Origin: Bacteroidota bacterium
GTDB taxonomy: Bacteria; Bacteroidota; Bacteroidia; Bacteroidales; PUMT01
DNA length: 53,643 nt
NCBI GenBank assembly: GCA_003554865.1
Contig: PWHJ01000029.1
Coordinates: 1-53,643, forward strand
Direction of reading: 5' to 3'
Both the position numbers and the translations under genes were made by a program. The notes below the pieces were generated by a model, which saw only the letters and a list, made by a program, of their open reading frames with translations, did no database searches and was not told where the DNA came from. Shown piece by piece: positions 24,675-53,643 of the stretch (its first letter is position 1; each line of letters opens with the position of its first letter).

Positions 24675-25775
24675 ATGGACATTGAAAAAAGAAAAGAAAC
24701 TTTTATAACACTCGGTCATTTTTTAAGGCAGTTTGACCCGGATAATCCGGCTGAAGTATCTTCCGGGGGAGTTGACAAGCTGAACCGTGAATTCATGGAG
24801 TCTGTAAAGGAGGTAGTCTCTTCCGCCCACCTCTACAATCCCTGGTTCACCGAAAGGAATGTAAGGCTTGCACTTGCATCGGCAGGAAAGATGCTTTCAC
24901 CTGAAAAGATGGAAAAGTGGTTATCCGGCTACAACTTTAGCCAAAAACCCAGCCGCAAAATGAGGATAGGGGTGATAATGGCCGGCAATATACCTCTGGT
25001 GGGCTTTCATGACATGCTTTGTGTTCTAATCTCGGGACACTCCTTTGCCGGAAAGCTCTCCTCCAAAGACGATAAGCTGCTGCCTCTTCTTGCCCGGATT
25101 ATCTCCTGCTTAGAGCCTGAAATTGAAAGGGATATTCATTTTGAAAGTGGCTTTCTAAAAGAGTTTGACGCCGTTATCGCAACAGGCAGCAATAACTCTG
25201 CCCGCTATTTTGATTATTATTTTGGCCAATATCCCCATATTATCAGAAGAAACCGCAATTCTGCAGCCATTTTAAGCGGCGATGAAACGGAAGCTGAGCT
25301 TGAAAAGCTGGCAGATGATATCTTCCGGTATTTCGGACTGGGATGCAGAAGCGTATCCAAATTGTATCTGCCCGAAAATTTCGATTTTACCTCTTTACAA
25401 AGAGCTTTTTCGGTCTATTCCCACTTGTCTGAGCACCATAAATGGGACAATAATTACCGCTACCGCAAAGCCGCTTTTCTTATGAATAAAATACCTTATT
25501 GCGATTTTGGTTTTGTTCTCCTGAAAGAGGATAAAAATTTATTCTCCCCCATAGGTGTTATATATTACGAACACTTTGCAGGCAAAGATGAAGCCTGGAG
25601 GGAGCTTTACGAGAATAAGGAAGAGCTTCAATGCATAGTATCTCAGGAAAAAGGGCCACTGGGTACCGTTCCTTTCGGAAAAGCGCAGGAGCCGGAGTTA
25701 TGGAACTACCCCGACAATGTCGATACTATCGATTTTCTGCTAAACCCCCATCAGCCTTTGGCAGACAAAACATGA
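24675..25775 (+). CDS. LuxC-like acyl-CoA reductase
   Basis: 366 residues from the ATG at 24675; the GTG start 11 codons earlier would add a hydrophobic stretch with no clear purpose. The protein belongs to the LuxC/acyl-CoA reductase family (aldehyde-dehydrogenase-like fold): IGVIMAGNIPLVGFHDMLCVLISGH is the nucleotide-binding start, GLGCRSVSKLYLP carries the catalytic Cys. It should reduce a fatty acyl thioester to the aldehyde with NADPH. The natural end appears to be DTIDFLL; the last ten residues (NPHQPLADKT, 357-366) are encoded by the left half of a repeat that also occurs upstream of HMG-CoA reductase, so the C-terminus has probably been altered by that repeat. Confidence 0.88.
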   Translation: MDIEKRKETFITLGHFLRQFDPDNPAEVSSGGVDKLNREFMESVKEVVSSAHLYNPWFTERNVRLALASAGKMLSPEKMEKWLSGYNFSQKPSRKMRIGVIMAGNIPLVGFHDMLCVLISGHSFAGKLSSKDDKLLPLLARIISCLEPEIERDIHFESGFLKEFDAVIATGSNNSARYFDYYFGQYPHIIRRNRNSAAILSGDETEAELEKLADDIFRYFGLGCRSVSKLYLPENFDFTSLQRAFSVYSHLSEHHKWDNNYRYRKAAFLMNKIPYCDFGFVLLKEDKNLFSPIGVIYYEHFAGKDEAWRELYENKEELQCIVSQEKGPLGTVPFGKAQEPELWNYPDNVDTIDFLLNPHQPLADKT

Positions 25776-25879
25776 TGAACAAACATGGGGGTTCATTCAG
25801 AAAAAAGAAATGAATTTAATTGACATATTGTGTTAAATTGCTGAATAGTAGTTTAATTAACCTAATTTGTACGAATAAA
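25743..25879 (+). repeat. Repeat copy A, upstream of miaA
   Basis: About 135 bp and close to 85-90% identical by eye to copy B (50399-50536). The left half (25743-25793) is bounded by an inverted repeat AACCCCCAT / ATGGGGGTT and encodes the last ten residues and stop of the acyl-CoA reductase. The right half (25792-25879), beginning TTCATTCAGAAAAAAG and ending TTTGTACG, is shared by all three copies. It ends 20 bp before the miaA start. No convincing TAnnTTTG box is conserved among copies, so promoter function is not proven. Confidence 0.85.
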
Positions 25880-29596: not shown

Positions 29597-29628
29597 ATTG
29601 GAAAATGGCTTCTTAGTTATTACTTTTG
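29597..29628 (+). promoter_or_regulatory. Promoter of SRP RNA gene
   Basis: ATTG (29597-29600), a 20-nt spacer and TACTTTTG (29621-29628) match the Bacteroidota -33/-7 pattern. The RNA's first paired base is 29633, five bases after the -7 box, as expected. Confidence 0.8.
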
Positions 29629-29632
29629 CATT

Positions 29633-29733
29633 GTGGGCAAGTCTTATACGGCCAGCTCCCGTCGAACTCCCCCAGGTCCGGAAGGAAGCAAGGGTAGACG
29701 GTTGTAGCGGTGCGATATAAGGAGCTTGCCCAC
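29633..29733 (+). ncRNA. ffs: Signal recognition particle RNA, small bacterial type (4.5S)
   Basis: About 101 nt. The apical Ffh-binding domain is recognised by CAGGTCCGGAAGGAAGCA, the universally conserved GGAA-loop hairpin with its asymmetric internal loop. The ends close with GTGGGCAAG pairing with CTTGCCCAC (29725-29733), followed by a seven-T terminator tract. With Ffh it targets nascent membrane and exported proteins to FtsY. It is a free-standing gene with its own promoter at 29597-29628. Confidence 0.96.
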
Positions 29734-29823
29734 TTTTTTTGTCTTAACACCTTGCCTCGCGGAGACTTAAAAACTACCACCCAGTTATAAAAGGATAATT
29801 AACCCTGATCTGTTTATATCTGT

Positions 29824-41585: not shown

Positions 41586-43313
41586 CTATCCTGTGTTCAT
41601 TGAAATGAGAAACTCCTCATTGGACTTTGTCTTCATCATTCGATCCCTGAGAAACTCCATTGCTTCTATAGGAGTCATATCCGCCAGGTAATTGCGAAGG
41701 ATCCATACCTTGTTCATCACATCCTCTTCAAGAAGAAGCTCTTCACGTCTTGTACTGGAAACGTTGACATCTACAGAGGGGAATATCCGCTTGTTGGACA
41801 ACTTCCTGTCAAGCTGCAGCTCCATGTTTCCGGTTCCTTTAAATTCTTCAAATATAACGTCATCCATTTTGGAGCCGGTCTCAGTGAGAGCTGTGGCAAG
41901 AATGGTAAGGGAGCCTCCTTTCTCTATATTGCGTGCAGCGCCAAAAAAGCGTTTCGGCTTTTGCAGTGCGTTGGCATCCACCCCACCCGAAAGAACTTTT
42001 CCGGATGCGGGAGATACGGTATTGAAAGCTCTTGCCAGCCTTGTTATCGAATCAAGGAGAATAAAAACATCATGCCCGCATTCAACCATCCGCTTGGCCT
42101 TCTCTATAACCATGTTTGCAACCCTTACATGCCTTTCAGCCGGCTCATCAAAAGTGGAGGATATAACCTCAGCTTTTACATTTCTTGCCATATCGGTCAC
42201 CTCTTCGGGGCGCTCATCAATTAGCAACACCATCATATAAACTTCAGGATGATTGACTGCAACGGCATTGGCAACCTCTTTGAGTAAAACTGTTTTACCG
42301 GTTTTAGGCTGTGCAACAATCAGGCCCCTCTGACCTTTTCCGATTGGTGTAAACATATCGACCACTCTCACCGAAAGGCTGTCGCTTGCAGGGCTGACCA
42401 GCCTGAACTTTTCATCAGGGAAAAGCGGAGTAAGATAGTCGAAAGGTACGCGGTCACGAATAAATTCAGGATTGCGGCCGTTTATCTGCTCAACTTTGAT
42501 AAGAGGGAAGTACTTCTCCCCTTCCTTCGGAGGCCTGATATTTCCTTCAACGTTATCACCTGTCTTTAAGCCAAAAAGCTTTATTTGTGACTGGGAAACA
42601 TATATATCATCGGGCGAGTTAAGATAGTTGTAATCCGAAGAGCGCAAAAAACCGTAACCATCGGGCATTATCTCAAGGACCCCCGAAGCGTAAATAATAC
42701 CGTCAAAGTCAAACTCGCGCATACCGTTTCTTCGATCCTGCGGCCTTCTTGATGATGTATCCTTATCGGCAGTCTTCTCCTGGGCCTTATCAGTTGCCTT
42801 CTCTTTCTGCTTATCAGCAGTTTTTTCTCTCTGTTTATCAGTTGCCTTCTCTTTCTGTTTATCAGCTGGCTTCTCCTGAGACTTGTCGGTTGCCCGATCT
42901 GGTTCCTGACTCTCCTGTTTTTTTTGGTTTTCAGAGATTTCTTTGGTTTTTTGTTGTTTAGGGCGCTCCTTAGTCTCTTCTGCCTTTTCAGAAACTTCAA
43001 CAGTTTCTTCCTTCTTTTTTGCCTGAGCCTGCTCCGTTTTCCCCTTTGCCTCCTCGCGGGATTTTCTGTTGCTTTCTTTGTCAACCGGCTGTTCCTGCTC
43101 TTTTCTGGAAGATGGTCTGCCCGGACTCCGGGTGGATTGCTTTGTTTTCTGATTTTGATTTTCTTTCCCGGAGGATATAATAGCCTGCTGGTCCAGGATC
43201 TTGTATATCAAATCCTGTTTTTTTAATGAATCAACTCGCTTAATGTTAAGATTTTTAGCAATTTCTCTCAACTCGGAAACAAGCTTCTTGTTCAGTTCAA
43301 GAATGTCGTACAT
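41586..43313 (-). CDS. rho: Transcription termination factor Rho with large disordered insert
   Basis: 575 residues, about 155 longer than E. coli Rho. Residues 1-45 are the Rho N-terminal helix domain ([19 protein letters not shown]). Residues about 46-205 are low-complexity, rich in Lys, Glu and Gln, with tandem units such as [16 protein letters not shown] and DKAQEKTA. The RNA-binding cold-shock domain ([14 protein letters not shown]) follows, then the ATPase with P-loop QPKTGKT near 330 and [12 protein letters not shown]. It is a hexameric RNA translocase that ends transcription. A comparable insert in Bacteroides thetaiotaomicron Rho drives phase separation, which is established for that species; here it is inference. 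Confidence 0.97.
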
Positions 43314-46797: not shown

Positions 46798-47193
46798 GGG
46801 GCTGACTGGTTTTGACAGCAAGGTGAACGGATATGTAAGCATGCCGAGCTAAGCATTTTTATCTCGTAAAACTGAAATGCAAAAAATTAAGAGGCGAAAA
46901 CAACTTCGCGCTTGCAGCATAACCTTCAGTAAGGTATGCTAATCCCAGGGTCAAGGAACCCGGGGCAAGCTGTCTCTCAAAAACCCCGCTCAACGGTTTT
47001 TGGTAAAGAGGCATTCGAAAAGTTGAGCTGCACGGGGAACAGTCCCGGTTTCCCCGTTAAGACCAAAGGGACTCGGGTTGCAGGTTGGTTGTCTGTTGCC
47101 GCCCTGCTTCCGACAACAAACAACAGACTAAGCATGTAGAAAGCATATTGGTTCCTTGTTTGGACGAGGGTTCGAATCCCTCCAGCTCCACCA
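46798..47193 (+). ncRNA. ssrA: Transfer-messenger RNA (tmRNA)
   Basis: 396 nt, one-piece form. The tRNA-like domain is closed by GGGGCTG at the 5' end and CAGCTCC-A-CCA at the 3' end, with the CCA encoded and a T-loop GGTTCGAATCC. The mRNA-like part encodes the tag GENNFALAA, from GGC at 46893 to the TAA at 46920-46922. It rescues stalled ribosomes with SmpB and marks the peptide for proteolysis; the ALAA end is the protease signal. A hairpin terminator follows within 5 nt. Confidence 0.97.
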
Positions 47194-50396: not shown

Positions 50397-50477
50397 ATGA
50401 ACCCCCATCAGACTTTGGCAGACAAAACGATGATGAACAAGCATGGGGATTCATTCAGAAAAAAGAAATGTATTTAA
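50397..50477 (+). CDS. Possible 26-codon leader ORF inside repeat copy B
   Basis: ATG at 50397 opens a frame of 26 codons, beginning MNPHQTLADKT and ending FRKKKCI, that runs through the left half of repeat copy B and stops 55 bp before the HMG-CoA reductase start. Copy A carries the same peptide split over two frames by a one-base deletion. Coding is unproven; it may be a by-product of the repeat. Confidence 0.2.
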   Translation: MNPHQTLADKTMMNKHGDSFRKKKCI

Positions 50478-50536
50478 TTGACATTCTATAATAACTTATT
50501 GAATATTAGCTTAATAAACCTGATTTGTACGGATGA
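50399..50536 (+). repeat. Repeat copy B, upstream of HMG-CoA reductase
   Basis: Second full-length copy. Compared with copy A it has an extra G at about 50429, and its hairpin arm reads ATGGGGATT so the inverted repeat is one pair weaker. The right half (from TTCATTCAG at 50450) is almost identical to copy C, including TTGACATTCTATAATAAC and the end TTTGTACGGATGA. The ATG of HMG-CoA reductase lies within this terminal GGATGA. Confidence 0.85.
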
Positions 50537-51693
50537 AGCTGCCAAAAGACAGAAAAAACGATTACTCCAGAACTGCTATTGACAAACGGATTAAATTTTT
50601 AAGCAGTAATAACGGAATTGATATTAAATATTTGAAAGGCAATAAAGTTGATCCGGAAAATGCAAGGGGTAACATCGAAAATATAATTGGCTTTTCTCAA
50701 GTACCCGTAGGGGCGATCGGACCCCTCAAGGTCAACGGAGACCATGCAAAAGGCGATTTTTTTGTCCCCCTCAGCACATCCGAAGGTGCATTGATAGCCT
50801 CGTTTAACCGCGGATCAAGGATTATAACTCTTTCGGGTGGCGCAAACGTTCTTGTATTAAAGAACACCATACAAAGGGCCCCCTGCTTTGAACTGAAGAA
50901 TTTGTCCAAAGTACAGGAGTTTATCGAGTGGATTCAAAACAATTTCAATACTCTTAAGCAGGTTGCAGAAAGCACAACAAAAACCGGCAAGTTGACAGGC
51001 TATAGTACTTATATTCAGGGAAAAATAGTTTTTCTGCGGCTGGAGTTTTTTTCAGGCGATGCAATGGGTATGAATATGGTCTCAAAATCTTCCCAGGAGA
51101 TTTGTAATTACATTAAGGAGCACTTTCCAATTGAGGGATATTTACTTGAAAGCAATATGGCGGTCGATAAGAAGCCCTCCGGCATTAACAGTATTCTGGG
51201 AAGAGGGAAAAGTGTAACTGCTGAGGTTGTATTAAAAAAGGACCTTATCTCAAAATACCTTTACACAACCTCAGAGGCAATTGACAAGGCTTACAGGCAA
51301 CAGCTCATGGGCGGAGTGCTTGCGGGAACCCAGGGGGCCAACGGTCACTTTGCCAACGGTGTTGCAGCTCTGTTTCTGGCATGCGGACAGGATCTTGCCA
51401 ATATAAGTGAATCTAGTGTAGGCTACACTTATATGGAAGATTTAGGCGGTGATCTGTACGTATCTGTAAACTTGCCCTCCCTGGTAGTAGGAACTGTAGG
51501 GGGCGGAACCTCCCTTCCAACACAACGCGAATGCCTTGAAATTATGGGCTGTTACGGCAACGGGAAAGCCCTGAAATTCACGGAAATTGCTGCGGCGACC
51601 GTGCTGGCAGGAGAAATATCTCTGGCTTCCTCGGTTGTGGCAGGCGACTTTATTACCGCTCATGAAAAATACGGGCGCAACCGCCCGAAATAG
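50533..51693 (+). CDS. Hydroxymethylglutaryl-CoA reductase, class I-like
   Basis: 386 residues, a catalytic domain without membrane anchor. Class I motifs are present: NIIGFSQVPVGAIGPL, Glu84 in STSEGAL, GDAMGMNMVSKS at 175-186, Lys213/Lys214 in DKKPSGIN, Asp287 in GQD and His377 in TAHEKY. It reduces HMG-CoA to mevalonate with NAD(P)H, the committed step of the mevalonate route to IPP and DMAPP. The ATG is formed by the last bases of repeat copy B. It is a single-gene unit; other mevalonate genes are not in the window. A lipid-gene run is divergent from it. Confidence 0.95.
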   Translation: MKLPKDRKNDYSRTAIDKRIKFLSSNNGIDIKYLKGNKVDPENARGNIENIIGFSQVPVGAIGPLKVNGDHAKGDFFVPLSTSEGALIASFNRGSRIITLSGGANVLVLKNTIQRAPCFELKNLSKVQEFIEWIQNNFNTLKQVAESTTKTGKLTGYSTYIQGKIVFLRLEFFSGDAMGMNMVSKSSQEICNYIKEHFPIEGYLLESNMAVDKKPSGINSILGRGKSVTAEVVLKKDLISKYLYTTSEAIDKAYRQQLMGGVLAGTQGANGHFANGVAALFLACGQDLANISESSVGYTYMEDLGGDLYVSVNLPSLVVGTVGGGTSLPTQRECLEIMGCYGNGKALKFTEIAAATVLAGEISLASSVVAGDFITAHEKYGRNRPK

Positions 51694-52257: not shown

Positions 52258-53421
52258 TTACCCTTTGATTGAGGCTATCTCCTCTACGGCTTTTATTGCC
52301 GCCTCGATCTGCTCTTCTGTATTGAAAGGGCCGAGACCAAACCTCACTGTTCCCTGAATATCTTTTGTACCGAGTCTTTCATGAACCATCGGAGCACATT
52401 GCAGGCCTGTGCGGCAGGCAATATTGTAATCCACATCAAGCATCATGCCAACATCAGCCGACGACATACCGGTAATATTAAAGCTCAAAACGGGATTTTG
52501 ATTTTCGGTATTTTCCGCACAATAAACTTTAACCCTTTCAATATTCTGAAGTCCGTTCCTCAGTTTGTCCCACAACACCAATTCCTGATTGTGGATGTTT
52601 TCAATACCTTTTTCATTTATCCATTTTACCCCGGCATTTAAGCCGGCCACCCCGGCCATGTTAAGGGTGCCGCATTCAAGCCTGTAGGGAAATTCCTCAA
52701 GATGGGAAAGTTGTGCAGAGCGTACTCCCGTACCCCCAAACCTGGTGGGTTTTACAGGCACCCCCTCCATCACGTAGGATCCGCCAATTCCTGTGGGTCC
52801 CATAAGGGACTTGTGACCGGTAAACACGTAAACATCTATGCCCATTGCCTGCATATCAACATTTACGCAACCGGCTCCCTGAGCTCCGTCAACTATAAAC
52901 AGCACACCGGCATCCTTGCATATTTTACCTATCTCCTCCAGAGGCTGAACTGTACCTATAATATTGGAGCAGTGATTCACCACAACCATTTTGGTATTGG
53001 GCTGCAATGCTTTTTTTATATCACCGGGGTCAACGTAGCCTTTTTCATCGAACGGCACATGCGTGGTCTCCGCAATACCGTCTGTGCCGAGATGGTAAAG
53101 CGGACGAAGAACGGAGTTGTGCTCAAGCATGGTCGTTACAATATGATCTCCTTTACCGGCAAGACCCTGAATGTTCATATTCAAAGAATCGCTGGCATTG
53201 TAACTGAAAGTTAGCCTGTTTGGATCGCCGTCCCCGTTAAAAAGTTCCATCAGCATAGTGCGGGTTTCCATTACAAGCTCCTCTGCTTCTATTGAGGCGT
53301 CAAAACCTGAGCGCCCCGGACTTACCCCTTTACTGGTGCAGAATTCATATATGAAATCATACACCAGCGCAGGCTTTGGAAAGGTGGTGGCAGCATTGTC
53401 CAGGTAAATAAAATTTTCCAT
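52258..53421 (-). CDS. Cysteine desulfurase family PLP enzyme
   Basis: 387 residues, class V aminotransferase fold. The PLP lysine is Lys204 in TGHKSL, the cofactor pocket has EHNSVLRPL and VDGAQGAG, and a Cys-containing active-site segment CRTGLQC (Cys336, Cys342) lies near the C-terminus. The layout fits the NifS/CsdB-related subfamily often annotated simply as cysteine desulfurase family protein; it may mobilise sulfur or selenium from (seleno)cysteine. No iscU or suf gene is adjacent, so its role in Fe-S assembly is open. Its leader is made of repeat copy C. Confidence 0.9.
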   Translation of the reverse strand: MENFIYLDNAATTFPKPALVYDFIYEFCTSKGVSPGRSGFDASIEAEELVMETRTMLMELFNGDGDPNRLTFSYNASDSLNMNIQGLAGKGDHIVTTMLEHNSVLRPLYHLGTDGIAETTHVPFDEKGYVDPGDIKKALQPNTKMVVVNHCSNIIGTVQPLEEIGKICKDAGVLFIVDGAQGAGCVNVDMQAMGIDVYVFTGHKSLMGPTGIGGSYVMEGVPVKPTRFGGTGVRSAQLSHLEEFPYRLECGTLNMAGVAGLNAGVKWINEKGIENIHNQELVLWDKLRNGLQNIERVKVYCAENTENQNPVLSFNITGMSSADVGMMLDVDYNIACRTGLQCAPMVHERLGTKDIQGTVRFGLGPFNTEEQIEAAIKAVEEIASIKG

Positions 53422-53439
53422 AACCGGGTATTTTTTGGT

Positions 53440-53530
53440 TCATCCGTACAAACAAAGTTAATTAAACTAATTTTCAATAAGTTATTATAGAATGTCAATT
53501 AAATTCATTTCTTTTTTTCTGAATGGACCT
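53440..53530 (-). repeat. Repeat copy C, upstream of the cysteine-desulfurase-like gene
   Basis: Read on the minus strand it starts GGAGGTCCATTCAG and ends TTTGTACGGATGAA, about 20 bp before the ATG at 53421. It contains only the right half of the element; the left half present in copies A and B is replaced by sequence resembling the 3' end of a group II intron. Identity to copy B is about 90% by eye. Confidence 0.85.
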
Positions 53531-53643
53531 CCGGGTAGAGCGGTTTGTTGCCTCCCCGCTCCCCCACAGATCCGGACGAGCGCCGTTAACGCATCCGGTT
53601 CCTCGGTAATCAGTTTCGCAAAGACGGAGCATAAGAATTAGAA
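53531..53643 (-). mobile_element. Probable 3' end of a group II intron (domains V and VI), cut by window edge
   Basis: On the minus strand 53601-53569 reads GAACCGGATGCG, a small loop, then CTCGTCCGGATC, which has the length (33 nt) and arms of group II domain V. A second hairpin, GAGCGG/CCGCTC with TACCC after it (53561 to about 53532), matches domain VI with a candidate branch-point A. The catalytic triad position reads AAC instead of the usual AGC, and the expected AY end is not obvious, so the copy may be decayed. The rest of the intron and any reverse transcriptase would lie beyond the window. Confidence 0.6.

Follow-up and report, generated by a model that had tools for sequence, protein, structure and literature searches.

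The window, the whole 53,643-nucleotide stretch of DNA that was analysed, is one complete contig that is broken inside a group II intron. Besides this intron end, it contains two uninterrupted copies of a hairpin repeat (A and B) and the remaining part of a third (C), located as follows.

25740 to 25879, plus strand: repeat copy A, uninterrupted, with the hairpin at 25740-25796 and the right module at 25803-25879 (alignment)
50397 to 50537, plus strand: repeat copy B, uninterrupted, with the hairpin at 50397-50454 and the right module at 50461-50537 (alignment)
52258 to 53421, minus strand: gene directly downstream of copy C; two congener orthologues show the locus without repeat and intron
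53439 to 53529, minus strand: 3' exon, consisting of the rest of the hairpin 3' arm and the right module of copy C (alignment with copies A and B)
53530 to 53643, minus strand: group II intron 3' end, running off the contig edge (Rfam and five identical contig ends; empty sites and relatives for the boundary)
53530 to 53565, minus strand: domain VI hairpin with a candidate branch-point A at 53536 and the terminus CCCGGA (Rfam match and reading)
53569 to 53602, minus strand: domain V hairpin, 34 nt (Rfam match and reading)
53610 to 53642, minus strand: C-terminal tail and stop codon of the intron maturase, SNSYAPSLRN followed by a stop (in-frame reading)

Elsewhere, the window carries a Bacteroidales small SRP RNA gene (29628-29735), a 24-bp direct repeat in four copies inside an open frame (42763-42875), and a tmRNA gene with the tag GENNFALAA (46798-47193).

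The intron 3' end and its junction

Minus-strand positions 53643-53530 form the 3' end of a group II intron, in which the end of the maturase frame is followed by domain V, domain VI and the terminus CUACCCGGA (to 53530), and then by GGTCCATTCAG, which leads into copy C. Minus-strand 53604-53530 reads GAGGAACCGGATGCGTTAACGGCGCTCGTCCGGATCTGTGGGGGAGCGGGGAGGCAACAAACCGCTCTACCCGGA. Using cmscan on the last 244 nt, we observed a full-model match to RF00029 (Intron_gpII) with 30.2 bits and an E value of 2e-4, a score under the curated gathering score of 40 bits; a scan of the whole window at the Rfam gathering thresholds did not report the intron. The domain VI hairpin and CUACCC agree with the Rfam consensus, which points to A53536 as the candidate branch point. 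The domain V triad is AGC with a G-U pair in most group II introns; the triad position here (53600-53598, minus strand) is AAC, opposite A or G, as in most relatives of this intron, and this may be partly behind the low Rfam score. The domain V/VI match is more than chance, since the sequence recurs with 100% identity at other contig ends and with 81-95% identity in relatives, and since complete introns end in the same block. Moreover, the maturase frames of the complete relatives stop at the same place, just ahead of domain V.

A preliminary description had proposed that domain V-like and domain VI-like hairpins on the minus strand end where copy C loses its homology to copies A and B, and that the 3' exon corresponds to part of copy A. 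The hairpins were confirmed by the full-length, though sub-threshold, RF00029 match and the loss of homology by alignment, and GGTCCATTCAG of copy C indeed matches GGTTCATTCAG of copy A. The intron end thus lies at the edge of the repeat as described, with the 3' splice point best placed at 53530/53529, one base off the 53531 given previously. As for the reverse transcriptase sought in that description, an in-frame maturase tail with its stop codon is present in the window and a maturase in the intact relatives, but there is none in the genome bin.

The boundary that we prefer, with slashes marking the splice points, is ACATGGG/UAGCGCC...CCCGGA/GGTCCAT, which restores the commonest empty site, ACATGGGGGTCCAT. 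An initial boundary one base away, ACATGG/.../AGGTCC, also fits; it was replaced by ACATGGG/.../GGTCC since the A at the intron end is present in all six 3' ends found in the genome (most empty sites have G there), since most relatives end in GGA, and since pairing in the relatives becomes one base longer. The intron thereby starts with U and ends with GA (UAGCG...GGA), differing from the group II termini 5' GUGYG ... AY 3'. Departures from these termini are known among group II introns (PMC4424553), and the atypical ends therefore do not exclude group II membership.

Intron copies and the hairpin repeat in the genome

The 3' intron end of the window recurs at five further contig ends (C10, C225, C40, C174 and C159), 100% identical over the sequence present, and the six 3' ends have six different downstream flanks. 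Searching with the left half of the repeat led to contig ends at which the repeat turns into GTAGCGCCGAGATAAGCC..., the intron start. When the intron start instead of the repeat was used as the query, it was found at four places in the genome, each directly preceded by the left half of the repeat up to ACATGG. One point of the repeat hairpin is thus cut in 4/4 5' ends and 6/6 3' ends, that is, in ten junctions, and a minimum of six intron copies are present in the genome, all at one hairpin position. The assembled parts of the intron amount to about 98 nt at the 5' end and about 115 nt at the 3' end. Neither a reverse transcriptase nor a maturase domain was detected in the bin by profile searches with RVT_1 and GIIM; the assembly lacks the intron body, and the contig break is probably due to a multicopy intron longer than the assembler's reach.

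The exons around these identical introns differ. The 3' exons of C174 and C159 share only the hairpin arm GGTCCAT, followed by a different right module; this module also follows uninterrupted hairpins on C130, C219 and C37, indicating that these two exons are repeat copies too. Altogether, the 3' exons belong to at least three repeat variants (TCAG, ACGACC, TTGACC and CGGAATTG types), each of which is also found uninterrupted elsewhere, and the 5' exons differ as well. This combination of identical introns with differing exons speaks for entry of the intron into repeats that were already diverged, and against joint copying of the two.

The genome carries other traces of group II introns. At least one further intron type is represented by C6 (L037:51-119) and C59 (L038:51-119), which start with the same domain V/VI (37.6 bits) and have different exons, and C11 has a solitary domain V/VI remnant (44.1 bits; L036:1501-1577) in the space between two genes. 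A maturase on C207 of genome G004 was judged, by reading only, to be foreign to the intron of the window.

The hairpin module of the repeat, 57 nt in length, has a small hairpin enclosed by a long outer stem. Among 32 aligned rows, made up of 31 picked copies plus a flank-derived variant, both-sided changes were seen in 11 of 15 hairpin pairs, a number reached by 0 of 500 shuffles, although kinship of the copies can inflate it. As a single strand, the target repeat folds with unremarkable stability (z -0.8). We found 44 blast matches of the left hairpin half and 86 covariance-model matches in the genome, scattered over many contigs and adjoining ordinary genes; the right module of copy C is 94.8% identical to the query used. 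An open reading frame of at least 80 codons starts within 40 nt of the right end in 20 of 34 copies, compared with 23% of random positions, and we take this right end to resemble the Bacteroidota promoter TAnnTTTG. The covariance model detected the repeat in 16/16 genomes of the GTDB family, with 4-86 matches each (E 0.01), and gave no match in the genomes sampled from the other families of the order (E 1e-5, stricter filters). The repeat itself appears to be mobile. REP elements are defined as palindromes of 20-40 bp with a GTAG or CGTC tag (PMC3733652); the present repeat has a 57-nt consensus, ATGAACCCCCAT...ATGGGGGTCCAT, with neither tag at its ends.

The repeat is also modular. Several copies (L012, L014, L020, L030 and others) contain an extra segment, TTGACCTGCGGTCGATTT...GAAATTCATACGACC, between the hairpin and the right module, and the arms of this segment look complementary and vary together. 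Head-to-tail copies sharing ATGAACC at the joint were seen at L108:5202-5393 (G000:C226), L082 and L025. Weak Rfam matches to hammerhead HH9 and CrcZ near other repeat copies were taken as chance.

The gene order of two congeners, G001 and G002, made it possible to look for the other side of the window insertion. The gene at 52258-53421, which from reading we take to encode an aminotransferase/cysteine-desulfurase-like product, has orthologues in both that are 83% identical. Immediately upstream of these orthologues is a gene that shares 71-72% identity with the first gene of C167. This contig is among the four that carry a 5' intron end, and no match came from the remaining three. This gene order makes it very probable that C167 and C102 flank one and the same insertion. 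The rejoined sequence (ACATGGG/GGTCCAT) and an uninterrupted copy on C23 share 95.8% identity over 142 nt. The preliminary description had suggested extending the sequence past the contig edge to look for a reverse transcriptase ORF, domains I-IV and the 5' exon, and had named absence of the left half of the repeat beyond the intron's 5' end as a point that would weaken the target-site idea. The 5' intron end is indeed present at four other contig ends, C167 is indicated as the other side, and the left half of the repeat is in place. In G001 and G002, the spacer between the two genes is short and contains no repeat and no intron. Since both congeners lack repeat and intron at this locus, the repeat probably came first and the intron then entered a pre-existing repeat, the alternative being a loss in the congeners.

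Relatives of the intron

From other families of the order, we recovered complete introns of about 1.9-2.0 kb with frames reading as group II maturases. The maturase of the one relative tested matched TIGR04416 (361.8 bits), RVT_1 and GIIM, and no endonuclease domain was matched in it; PDB matches do not separate the intron classes. In two distant relatives, the end of the 5' exon pairs over 9 bp with intron nt 220-229, and pairing in the others is weaker or ambiguous. These 9 bp exceed the exon-intron pairing known for group IIC introns.

The targets of three related genomes could be compared with that of the window. In G006, both 5' ends occupy the corresponding point of a hairpin of this kind, and a 3' exon is in agreement. 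For G013, another site on the same hairpin, CATCA/GCCTTCGGCAG, is indicated by three 5' ends together with one 3' exon. The intron flanks of G007 appear to belong to other hairpins, with the pairing of these flanks being assumed; if they are paired correctly, the junction lies in the apical loop of a strong long-stem hairpin (z -6.6). The G007 flank loci are L215 and L224 (5' exons) and L053, L058, L060 and L061 (3' exons), and a sequence like the G007 hairpin, without an intron, is found on C83 of the source genome (L021:1557-1652).

Only short intron fragments are left in G001, and such fragments are common in relatives. Among the remnants at L050:2104-2215 (G001:C31), L216, L217 and L220, one consists of about 56 nt of the 5' end running straight into the domain V/VI end, whereas several others are 5' fragments of about 65-70 nt. 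G201 contains an 832-nt version of the intron (L204:429-1260, minus strand) without most of the maturase frame, next to a 1,987-nt copy in the same genome.

The repeat as a proposed homing site

The suggestion of the preliminary description that repeats of this family may be homing sites is supported by the cutting of the hairpin at one point in every 5' and 3' end of the genome and by the use of the same hairpin in relatives. Judging from sequence comparison, we propose, with a probability of roughly 0.88, that this is a multicopy mobile group II intron that spreads by retrohoming, with a single fixed point in a dispersed intergenic hairpin repeat as its target. Its maturase, as extrapolated from the relative, would have about 400 amino acids and no endonuclease domain. 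Splicing, EBS1-IBS1 pairing, reverse splicing and reverse transcription are established steps of group II biology. By these steps, splicing would form a lariat that is bound by the maturase, EBS1 of the excised intron RNA would pair with the IBS1 exon bases beside the cut in the repeat, and the intron RNA would reverse splice into the repeat. The reverse transcriptase would then copy the intron from replication-derived primers, a priming mode that we propose because the maturase of the tested relative gave no endonuclease-domain match. Every repeat copy would be a further target. The cost of insertion to the host is probably low, given the intergenic position of the repeat and an entry point upstream of its promoter-like right half. 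The exact target varies across the family, as illustrated by the other sites in G013 and G007.

As a rival reading, folded hairpins might be recognized by their structure, with sequence pairing being secondary and the repeat being one of several substrates, as for class C introns. Such recognition would suit the G013 site elsewhere on the same hairpin and the G007 exons in other hairpins, and IIB introns at attC-like structures have been reported from a soda lake (PMC7923331). However, all ten junctions in the genome agree in sequence and not in the hairpin alone, the target repeat does not fold with exceptional stability, two relatives show 9 bp of exon-intron pairing, and the G007 junction in an apical loop depends on an assumed pairing of flanks. 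We thus consider recognition by structure unlikely. Similarly tentative is the idea of a non-IIC lineage that is specialized on host hairpin repeats as a class and for which folded DNA is part of recognition, which is suggested by the shift of site within one hairpin in G013 and the move to other hairpins in G007. If true, hairpin-repeat recognition would add another mode of targeting to those already known, namely homing sites, terminators and attC.

The identity of the intron ends in all copies and the apparent mobility of the repeat could also fit a single entry of the intron into one repeat copy, followed by copying of intron and repeat as a unit; this is very improbable, given that the six 3' exons fall into at least three repeat variants that also occur uninterrupted and that the 5' exons differ. 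An origin of the junctions as assembly chimeras, or of the domain V/VI match by chance, would agree with the sub-threshold Rfam score, the location at a contig edge and the common intron fragments in relatives, but is effectively refuted by six 3' and four 5' junctions at one point with the same arrangement in G006, by complete homologous introns with a maturase, and by the congener gene order that backs one flank pair.

Retrohoming into the repeat can be set beside several known systems. Bacterial TIGR04416 introns lack the endonuclease domain and home by IBS-EBS pairing. The intron resembles them in its domain V/VI end and, as judged from its complete relatives of about 2.0 kb, in a frame ending before domain V and in exon-intron pairing; it differs from them in having its homing site in a dispersed family-restricted repeat, in its U..GA termini and in its AAC triad. 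RmInt1, a group II intron without an endonuclease domain, uses the repeated element ISRm2011-2 as a stock of sites. Both introns thus exploit another repeated mobile element, which is an insertion sequence for RmInt1 and a hairpin repeat of about 150 bp here. Group IIC introns sit at terminators and integron attC sites (PMC4424553), and the present intron is likewise inserted at intergenic hairpins, away from coding sequence; its junction, however, lies inside the 3' arm of the hairpin and not after the hairpin, where a group IIC insertion would be expected. Insertion sequences and, in P. putida, 2/9 group II introns have been reported in REPs (Tobes and Pareja 2006, PMC1525189), which are dispersed extragenic palindromes serving as insertion targets as the present repeat does; here, in contrast, 10/10 junctions lie in the repeat, which is longer, modular, gene-proximal and not REP-like. 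In the open literature searched, we found no description of the repeat, of the intron-repeat association or of an intron strictly specialized on a hairpin repeat confined to one family. Group II introns are already known from REP repeats, terminators and attC hairpins, and the present case is not a new kind of association.

The intron probably accounts for where the assembly breaks. Equally interesting may be the repeat itself, which combines a hairpin with a promoter-like end and is missing from this locus in G001 and G002. With dozens of empty sites and several filled ones in a single genome, and with shifted sites in relatives, the system constitutes a natural experiment on how an intron chooses and changes its target. 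Landing in another repeated element allows a retroelement to increase its copy number in a compact genome while leaving genes intact.
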